In this document: one piece after another, positions 15,830 to 24,687 of the stretch
Numbering within the stretch: the first letter of the stretch is position 1
Layout of the letters: every line of letters begins with the position of its first letter
Source: Bacillota bacterium
GTDB taxonomy: Bacteria > Bacillota > JADQBR01
Length of the DNA: 56,186 nucleotides
Reading direction: 5' to 3'
NCBI GenBank assembly: GCA_016278515.1
Contig: JADQBR010000007.1
Location: 1 to 56,186, forward strand
Made by a program: the position numbers and the translations under genes
Notes under the pieces: model-generated
What the model was told of the DNA's origin: nothing
The model's input: the letters and a program-made list of their open reading frames with translations, nothing else
The model's database searches: none

Positions 15830-16684
15830 TTACTCATTCTCCAAACATGATATTATTTCCTCTTCCGACATTTGATCTTTTTCCTGTTGCGGCATGAACT
15901 CCTCTACGGTTTTTCTAACTAACGAGAGCAAATATTGAAGTTTTTCTTCATTAATCATTTCCTGTTCGAAAGCATATAAAGCATCATCGACAAGCCCATC
16001 AAACTTAATAATTTTAGTCCTTCTTTGTTGTTGGGCACCTATTTGCCATCTTTTCTGAACCAATCGCACTCCAGACTTTTCGTCACGGTCAGGTATTTGT
16101 AATAATTCTATACATTTTTCTCGTTGTATAAATTCAACTTCATACAATCGCCTAACTATGGTTTTATATGGTACATGAAAAATCTCCATCAATTTAACAA
16201 GATGTTTAAGTTCCAAATTGTTTTCATTTAAGCCCATATGATTTAATTGGTTTCTCAGTACATCTTTAGGGACTAAAAACATGGCTGCAAATCGATTAGC
16301 TAATGCCTCTTTATCTTGGTTCCCGGTAATCTCAAATAAATCTAAATTCTTACTCTTTAATATCTCTCCAGTAATTGATATTTCATTGTCAAACCAAATA
16401 TGATATAGTTCATGGGCTGCTGCAAAAATTTGTTTTTCGTAAGGTAAATACGAATTAATATAAGAGAACAACCTTTTATCCTTACTACAAACAAAACCAC
16501 AAAGTTCATCATCAGCTATTGGATACTGTAAAAAATTTGAATTGTCTGCAATGATCTTAAATACCTCATCCCTTACTATTTGAGAAGATTTCCCAATATT
16601 TGCGAGTTTTCCATATGCTTTCTCTTCTAAATCTGATACATATGTTGAAGCAAGGTCTAAGTTAAGTATTTCTTGTGAAGACAT
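15830..16684 (-). CDS. ImmA/IrrE-family metallopeptidase
   Basis: A 284-residue protein with the zinc-peptidase motif in FAAAHELYHIWFD (HExxH, near residue 88) and a distal KEALANRFAAMFLVP helix supplying the third ligand, as in COG2856/IrrE proteins. The C-terminal third (about 190-284) is helical and charged. ATG 16684 is preferred over two closer in-frame starts because of GGAG spacing. It follows an XRE repressor gene by 17 bp. In phages and ICEs such peptidases cleave the partner XRE repressor to derepress transcription. Here the target genes would be this operon and the PIN-like gene. Confidence 0.85.
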   Translation of the reverse strand: MSSQEILNLDLASTYVSDLEEKAYGKLANIGKSSQIVRDEVFKIIADNSNFLQYPIADDELCGFVCSKDKRLFSYINSYLPYEKQIFAAAHELYHIWFDNEISITGEILKSKNLDLFEITGNQDKEALANRFAAMFLVPKDVLRNQLNHMGLNENNLELKHLVKLMEIFHVPYKTIVRRLYEVEFIQREKCIELLQIPDRDEKSGVRLVQKRWQIGAQQQRRTKIIKFDGLVDDALYAFEQEMINEEKLQYLLSLVRKTVEEFMPQQEKDQMSEEEIISCLENE

Positions 16685-16701
16685 AAATATCATCACTCCA
16701 T

Positions 16702-17052
16702 TTATCTTTGAGCCATTTCTTTTAAGGCGACCATTTCGTCCATCACATGATTGAGAAACCGTAAATCATCTTTTGTATTTGCTTTTGTAACTGTTCCCAT
16801 TAAGGTTAACATGGGGTTAGTGTTAGTCTGCATCTCCGCTTGAACTGGGCTAATTAGCTCATCTATGGTAATATTTAACACACTTGCTATTTTAGATATC
16901 TCCTCAACATTTATTGCCTTTTTACCTCTAACAATTTTACTAACAACCTGTTTTGACATTCCTATTTCTCGCGCTAAATCTGTTTGAGTCATTTCGGTTT
17001 CTCCGAGAAGCTCTAGTATCTTTTTACCGATGCGCTCAAATACATCAACCAT
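16702..17052 (-). CDS. XRE-family transcriptional regulator
   Basis: A 116-residue protein with an N-terminal helix-turn-helix (MTQTDLAREIGMSKQVVSKI, residues about 20-39, continuing to GKKAINVEEISKIASVL) and a C-terminal helical tail. ATG 17052 follows GAGGGGAGGA. It is first gene of the XRE-ImmA-PIN operon and probably binds the TGTAAAC palindrome 59 bp upstream. It is the likely substrate of the adjacent ImmA/IrrE peptidase. Confidence 0.88.
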   Translation of the reverse strand: MVDVFERIGKKILELLGETEMTQTDLAREIGMSKQVVSKIVRGKKAINVEEISKIASVLNITIDELISPVQAEMQTNTNPMLTLMGTVTKANTKDDLRFLNHVMDEMVALKEMAQR

Positions 17053-18349: not shown

Positions 18350-18928
18350 CTAGTATTCCTCTTTAATAAGTTTCACCAATGACTCATAAGACTGTGCACC
18401 CATAACACCCTGGTTTTTGAAAATAAAACATGGTATACCCGTGATGCCTTTATTCTGTGCCTCTGCGTGGTCTTGTAGGACTAAGCTTTGATAATGTTCA
18501 CTTGTGACCGCTTCCCGGAATTCGTCTTTGTTAAATCCGAGATGGTCAGCAATTTCTACCAAGTTACTTAAGTCGTTAATATTAATTTCCTGCTGATACT
18601 GCGCCCTAAATACTGCCTCATGATAATCATTCGCCATTCCGTGTTCTGCTGCGTACTTACCACCGGCCAGAGCCATTCTAGAGTGTTTACTTTTCCTATT
18701 CCATTTCATTTCCAGCCCGTATTGTTTTGAAAGAGCCTCCACTCCGGCTTTAGCCCGGGCAAGATATTCCGGCGATTTTTCAGGAAGTTCAGCCTCTTCC
18801 GGGCGCAGTTCGAAGGCCTTCCACTCTACTTCCACATTATATTCCTTGACCAACTGGTCAAGCGGGATTTTCCCAATAAAACAAAACGGTCATAGAAAGT
18901 CAGAATAAACAATAATTTTTTTAACCAA
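18350..18928 (-). CDS. FrnE/DsbA-family oxidoreductase, putative selenoprotein (UxxC)
   Basis: A thioredoxin-fold FrnE-like protein. The perfect ribosome-binding site AGGAGG is followed by TTG 18928, giving LVKKIIVYSDFL-TGA-PFCFIGK. The TGA (18890-18892, codon 13) falls exactly where the family has the first Cys of the CPxC active site; the resolving Cys16 is present. The frame then continues for 179 codons with the conserved family text (WKAFELRPE, SRMALAGGKYAAEHG, GITGIPCFIF). This is best read as selenocysteine, with a stem-loop at 18845-18862 as SECIS candidate. A caller using ordinary stops would wrongly begin at 18853. The alternative is a nonsense mutation. It is last of a likely glpK-C69-frnE run. 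Confidence 0.8.
18845..18889 (-). promoter_or_regulatory. Candidate SECIS element
   Basis: Directly after the TGA, the minus-strand mRNA has the perfect palindrome CTTGACCAGTTGGTCAAG (18845-18862). It gives a 6-8 bp stem with GU at the tip, about 35 nt from the TGA, within the range for bacterial SECIS loops. A smaller GGGA/TCCC stem (18864-18874) lies between. This is inferred from position and pairing only. Confidence 0.5.
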
Positions 18929-18995
18929 CTTAATTCCTCCTCATAAAATTAATACTAGATCTCCATCCAAGTATGTCTTTTACACAATGTAATAT

Positions 18996-23651: not shown

Positions 23652-24605
23652 TTAGTAACTAAATATTTTTTCGTATTCTCCATAGCCTTCTTTATCTAAG
23701 TGCTCTTTTGGGATAAACCTTAAGGCTGCAGAATTTATGCAGTATCTTAGGCCAGTTGGTTCCGGCCCGTCCTTAAAAACGTGTCCCAAGTGAGCATCAG
23801 CCTCTTTACTTCTTACTTCGAGACGAACCATATTATGGCTTGCGTCCTTCTTCTCCTTAACGTTTTCCTTTTTGATTGACTTTGTAAAGCTAGGCCAGCC
23901 GCATCCGGAATCAAATTTGTCCAGGGAACTGAACAATGGCTCACCGGATACAATGTCAACGTATAGCCCATCTTCCTTATGGTCCCAAAATTCGTTATTA
24001 AATGCCGGTTCCGTTCCGTTTTCTTGTGTTACTTGATACTGCATTGGAGTAAGCTTTTCTAATCTTGCATCCTGTTTGTTTTTCCATGTTTCTTCAATGA
24101 AATTATCCCGTCCAGAACTATACCTATAGAGATTATAATGACTAGTATTTTTTCTATAATAGTCCTGATGGTAGTCTTCAGCAGGATAAAACGGGCGTGC
24201 AGGAAGTATTTCGGTAACGATTGGCTCCGAAAAACGCTCGCTCTCCTCTATAGCTTGTTTTGATTCCTCTGCCAGACGTTTCTGTTCATCGGTATGATAA
24301 AAGATTACTGTCCGGTAAGATTCTCCCCGGTCGTTAAACTGGCCGCCCGGGTCTGTGGGGTCAATTTGCTGCCAGAAGGTCTCCAAAAGACGCTCATATG
24401 AAAAGACTTGAGGGTCGTAGGTTATCTGTACTGCTTCATAATGTCCTGTTGTATTGGAGCAGACTTCTTTATAGGTAGGGTTTTCTTTATGGCCCCCAGT
24501 ATATCCTGAAACAACTTTGATGATACCGGGCTGTTCATCAAACGGCTTGACCATACACCAAAAACAACCACCTGCAAAGGTTGCCAATTCATAGTTTTTG
24601 TCCAT
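23652..24605 (-). CDS. msrAB: MsrA-MsrB fusion methionine sulfoxide reductase
   Basis: A 317-residue two-domain repair enzyme. The MsrA part (about residues 1-165) reduces Met-S-sulfoxide and has the active-site motif GGCFWCM near the N-terminus. The MsrB part (about 185-317) reduces Met-R-sulfoxide and has [16 protein letters not shown] and the catalytic Cys in [11 protein letters not shown]. The usual zinc CxxC pairs of MsrB are absent (VSGEPLF instead), so this is the zinc-free type. ATG 24605 has AAGGAGG 7 nt upstream; an in-frame TTG further up would swallow the ribosome-binding site. It is cytoplasmic (no signal) and serves oxidative-stress repair in an anaerobe. Confidence 0.95.
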
Positions 24606-24687
24606 AAAGCGCCTCCTTGTCAATTGACTCCGCTTTCTCTGTCTGCTTTAAATATATTTTACCCTTGTCATCTATCCGTATTCAAAG

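Follow-up and report, generated by a model that had tools for sequence, protein, structure and literature searches.

An in-frame TGA at the catalytic cysteine of a FrnE/DsbA-like gene from a Bacillota bacterium very probably encodes selenocysteine

Does the single in-frame TGA of a FrnE/DsbA-like gene end the protein, betray an error, or specify selenocysteine (Sec)? We addressed this question for a locus on the minus strand of a 56,186-nucleotide stretch of DNA, hereafter the window. A sequence-only reading had proposed a putative selenoprotein here, an interpretation now supported by a conserved TGA/Cys column, the Sec machinery and a SECIS-like hairpin. The gene very probably encodes a FrnE/DsbA-like thiol-disulfide oxidoreductase, presumably cytoplasmic, with an attacking Sec (U13-P-F-C16), produced by SelB-dependent recoding of UGA. 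The frame, the exchange of TGA and Cys, the machinery genes and the conservation of the RNA element can all be read from the sequences themselves. The gene is laid out as follows.

18350..18928, minus strand: coding sequence of the putative FrnE/DsbA-like selenoprotein, 192 codons when TGA is read as U, Sec at codon 13 (U-P-F-C), TAG stop
18936..18941, minus strand: Shine-Dalgarno sequence AGGAGG, separated from the TTG by a 7-nt spacer, read from the sequence
18890..18892, minus strand: TGA codon, proposed Sec13, replacing the N-terminal Cys of CPxC in a column that holds TGA or Cys in homologues

The start codon is TTG 18928-18926 (minus strand), preceded by a perfect AGGAGG at 18941-18936, and the coordinates given in the sequence-only reading were correct. 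The frame ends at TAG 18352-18350. Codon 13 is the sole in-frame stop within the 192 codons, and 179 codons follow it. With TGA as Sec, the product begins LVKKIIVYSDFL-U-PFCFIGKIPLDQL, and the context SDFL-U-PFCFIGK places the TGA where the CPFC motif of FrnE/DsbA proteins has its first Cys, as had been described. The only Cys residues of the 192-residue product are at positions 16 and 167. Pfam DSBA (PF01323) matched the product over its whole length (residues 5-188, 5.1e-38). The earlier assignment to FrnE was borne out, as Deinococcus FrnE (5cp1/5cnw, E = 2.5e-20) is the closest match of known structure, with U13 at the first Cys of its CPWC motif. Furthermore, the protein alignment of homologues revealed C13, P14, C16 and P166, the Pro of the later T-x-x-P loop, as invariant columns.

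Mechanical ORF calling returned only a 167-residue ORF that begins at TTG 18853 and misses the redox motif, in agreement with the earlier remark that ordinary gene calling drops the active site. None of the NCBIfam models reached its cut-off with the product; therefore, the active site is likely missed by automatic annotation. The Rcas_1661 family thioredoxin-like (seleno)lipoprotein model (NF041057) scored 52.5 bits over the C-terminal part only, below its curated cut-off of 190 bits, and was rejected as the identity of the protein.

The homologues came from genome contigs, samples drawn among relatives and across the phylum, the class to which one Bacillus-group relative belongs, and two focused groups. 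At the 101 homologous loci with a readable Sec column, the codon was TGA at 61, TGT at 30 and TGC at 10, and nothing else. In relatives the frame is intact and conserved, its codon here being TGA or one for Cys; with TGA in exactly this column at 61 loci and Cys at all others, the placement of the TGA is beyond chance. TGA forms were found in Terrihalobacillus, Paenisporosarcina, Aneurinibacillus, Evansella, Aquibacillus, Sediminibacillus, Paludifilum, Dehalococcoidia and 27 genomes of one genus; in the order of genome G005, 27/27 matches carried one TGA. The near-clade proteins, which are TGA-bearing and come from other genera, share about 50-65% identity with the window protein, indicating that protein-level selection acts on the frame before and after the TGA. 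In a tree of 97 proteins, the window protein falls inside an all-Sec clade of 37 (support 100/100), and the distribution of Sec and Cys states requires at least 8-9 changes.

Sec and Cys members are closely mixed in a second Bacilli subgroup (L078, L081, L084, L088-L090, L093-L095). In Terrihalobacillus insolitus, a FrnE-like gene with Cys (CPFC) has a Sec (UPFC) paralogue immediately after it (L018:5335-6570). In Paludifilum halophilum (L033:6001-6262), the homologue has both the TGA and a hairpin, and the match splits in two near codon 29, possibly through a frameshift or a sequencing error. An unannotated homologue on a Caballeronia plasmid was rejected as a TGA form, its codon being an ordinary TGT.

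The search for selA, selB, selC and selD that had been proposed as a check found selB and selC in the genome of the window, with selA beside them and selD elsewhere. selB scored 394 bits and is followed after about 80 bp by the tRNA-Sec gene (selC), which scored 71 bits and was called by ARAGORN as tRNA-SeC with anticodon TCA. The ORF immediately before selB was identified as selA by its position and sequence, with no profile search. Two selD genes exceeded the cut-off (L042 and L043, contigs C93 and C162), each with one in-frame TGA; one of them reads ...SAAGUAAKIGPG..., and we take the U of GUAAKI to be the usual Sec position of SelD.

Among the 43 genomes tested, all 23 TGA-bearing genomes had a tRNA-Sec of at least 61 bits. 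For the Bacillota genomes drawn from whole-genome searches, a tRNA-Sec of at least 60 bits was present in 13/13 TGA-bearing versus 3/13 Cys-only genomes (one-sided Fisher p of about 5e-5, computed by hand and uncorrected for relatedness). A tRNA-Sec was also found in five actinobacterial Cys genomes, showing that a genome can have Sec and still use the Cys form.

Downstream of the TGA, two adjacent hairpins were identified.

18864..18874, minus strand: hairpin 1, GGGA-AAA-UCCC, directly before hairpin 2; pairs kept in relatives, from the RNAalifold consensus
18845..18862, minus strand: hairpin 2, SECIS-like, CUUGACC-AGUU-GGUCAAG; from fold energy, synonymous invariance and paired double changes

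Hairpin 2 is the stem-loop that had been placed about 35 nt downstream of the TGA, and its position at 18862-18845 agrees with that description; hairpin 1 (18874-18864) had gone unmentioned. Hairpin 2 has a 7-bp stem and an AGUU loop that lies 34 nt after the UGA, and its energy ranges from -8.9 (bare stem) to -10.3 kcal/mol (22 nt, z -3.5). Published rules for bacterial SECIS elements call for a loop of 3-9 nt, a stem of 4-16 bp, a G in the first two loop positions, a spacing of 16-37 nt from the UGA and an MFE of at most -7.5 kcal/mol (PMC13188914). Hairpin 2 of the window passes these rules, and the SECIS check suggested earlier thus came out in favor of the element, with strong synonymous constraint besides. 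Folded as a whole, the 62-nt stretch does not stand out (z -1.46), and an Rfam scan of the region returned no matching model, only a chance snoRNA match.

Synonymous invariance is the strongest sign of an RNA element. In the stretch of codons 18-28, a single synonym is used throughout the 37 relatives at 7 of the 10 scorable codons, as exemplified by Gly GGG (37/37), Leu CTT (37/37) and Leu TTG (35/35); further downstream, this holds for 0 of 69 codons (Mann-Whitney p = 8e-4). Both hairpins are nearly frozen: the GGG/CCC pairs of hairpin 1 are kept in 38/38 members and its A-U pair in 36/38, while the three C-G pairs of hairpin 2 are kept in 38/38. Paired cells make up 91% with the structure in register, and a shift of 1-3 columns leaves roughly 50% at most. 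The element varies so little that covariation is weak; among the 38 clade members, hairpin 2 shows a paired change from U-A to C-G once and from G-C to A-U once, and pairs with double changes number 3 versus 1.1 expected in shuffles. An A.C mismatch occupies the fifth pair of hairpin 2 in 30/38 members, so that most of the clade fails a strict scan for uninterrupted SECIS stems; the hairpin of the window passes it.

Other Sec groups carry different hairpins closer to the TGA. Sec members of the second Bacilli group have a GCGGA-GGU-UCCGC-like hairpin (GCGGAGGTTCCGC-like) about 20 nt after the TGA, and its Cys members mostly lack anything comparable. In a third Sec group, a UCGGCAA-AGGUA-UUGUCGA-like hairpin occupies the usual place, about 20 nt after the TGA. 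A simple hairpin scan reached -5 kcal/mol at 30/61 TGA loci versus 6/40 Cys loci, and -7.5 kcal/mol at 14 TGA loci versus 1 Cys locus.

The two-hairpin arrangement, with its loop 34 nt from the UGA, is the least ordinary part of the finding. It might be that the two hairpins together form the recoding signal of the clade that includes the window, and that a single protein family gained three or more distinct recoding elements, a tentative proposal to which we give slightly less than an even chance. Hairpin 1 (GGGA-AAR-UCCC), which has no fixed apical G, would then sit where other Sec clades carry their SECIS and would bring the nearly frozen hairpin 2, with its A-G-U-U loop, to SelB from 34 nt away. 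No description of such an arrangement was found in a shallow search of the literature.

The TGA could still be a true stop codon or stem from an error in sequencing, leaving either a pseudogene or a codon 13 that is really TGC or TGT. TGA differs from these by a single base, and an apparently decayed copy does exist in another genome from the family of the window. This copy, in genome G002 (L037:1212-1800; L004/L037), has a TGA at the Sec column and an in-frame TAG at codon 35, its C-terminus is disturbed and a recognisable hairpin is absent; it is probably a decaying copy or the product of assembly errors. We rejected pyrrolysine insertion at the extra TAG, as no PylS exceeded the cut-off in the four genomes G000 (that of the window), G001, G002 and G582. 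Against a stop or an error, dozens of genomes sequenced independently of one another share this TGA, and every one tested encodes tRNA-Sec. The frame is conserved on either side of the TGA, with synonymous sites of codons 19-28 frozen. We therefore rejected a pseudogene on the evidence of conservation, machinery and hairpin, and we regard a stop or an error as highly improbable.

Another explanation without selenium is that the UGA is read by a near-cognate tRNA, such as that for Trp or Cys, or has been generally reassigned. Some readthrough does occur at many UGA codons. The residue replaced, however, is always the catalytic Cys and never Trp, the carriers have tRNA-Sec, and three types of downstream RNA element accompany the TGA and are mostly missing in Cys homologues. 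Plain readthrough was rejected on the same three lines of evidence, and we give it only a very slight chance. Least probable of all, to the point of being negligible, is an internal start at TTG 18853 yielding a 167-residue protein with a non-redox role, which would match the mechanical ORF call but would leave unexplained the conservation of the 12 upstream codons and the P-F-C motif as well as the perfect Shine-Dalgarno sequence of TTG 18928, and would produce a truncated thioredoxin fold devoid of its first strand and catalytic turn.

Under Sec insertion, ribosomes would start at TTG 18928, SelB would deliver Sec-tRNA(Sec) at UGA 18892-18890, presumably while bound to the hairpin at 18862-18845, and translation would proceed past the UGA to TAG 18352-18350. 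By analogy with related enzymes, the selenol of Sec13 would attack disulfides or reduce oxidised thiols, and C16 would resolve the intermediate. No signal peptide was seen by eye in the product, which is predicted to be soluble and probably cytoplasmic.

Deinococcus radiodurans FrnE (DR_0659; PDB 5cnw, 5cp1 and others) is homologous to the window protein over the whole length of the latter (residues 5-188), its CPWC aligning with U13-C16, and differs in using Cys instead of Sec. FrnE has been described as a disulfide reductase of the cytoplasm, without which cells become more sensitive to oxidative treatments, and its C-terminal CXXXXC has been proposed to regenerate the active site (PMC8945050). 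This second motif is absent from the window protein, implying that its regeneration must use another partner. Lmo1059 of Listeria monocytogenes, a Cys enzyme of the DsbA family, has a CPFC motif where the window protein has UPFC, a likeness taken from the description in the paper; it has GSSG reductase activity and a role in oxidative-stress tolerance (PMC10715225).

The sequence-only reading had expected a FrnE-like UxxC protein to be a notable member, which overstated its novelty, since Sec-containing DsbA-like COG2761 proteins have been a known family since 2005. In that year, a "DsbA-like protein" (COG2761, UxxC) was reported from nine marine sequences in the selenoproteome of the Sargasso Sea (PMC1088965). 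A genome set of 2006 counted four members, including Firmicutes, with Desulfotomaculum reducens and Desulfovibrio desulfuricans among the carriers (PMC1794560), and "DsbA-like protein form 1" was listed in 2026 (PMC13188914). Form 1 shares with the window protein the PF01323 domain, the UxxC motif with Sec at the first Cys position, widespread Cys homologues and a putative SECIS directly after the UGA, and COG2761 is the FrnE/DsbA-like group. Compared with the published members, as they are described, the clade of the window differs by its two-hairpin element at a greater distance. Our search of the literature for FrnE as a selenoprotein, or for selenoproteins of Desulfosporosinus, found nothing relevant. 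Sec is thus already known in the COG2761 DsbA-like family, of which the window protein is a new, well-supported member.

We found no gene neighbourhood common to the window and its relatives (seven loci plus the window), and context therefore gives no functional hint. About 5 kb upstream of the FrnE-like gene, the window encodes a fused methionine sulfoxide reductase MsrA-MsrB with PMSR and SelR domains (23652-24623, minus strand). A gene for an HTH regulator adjoins one for an IrrE/ImmA-like M78 peptidase at 15830-17052 (minus strand).

The DsbA-like selenoprotein family was previously known from few sequences, and our analysis adds a widespread lineage in Bacillota that includes, among others, several genera of Bacilli and 27 genomes of one order outside Bacilli. 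Closely related Sec and Cys forms coexist, in one genome even as tandem genes, and are a handy setting for asking what Sec buys a FrnE-type enzyme. Furthermore, the FrnE-like family is useful for following recoding elements as they emerge and shift position within coding sequences.
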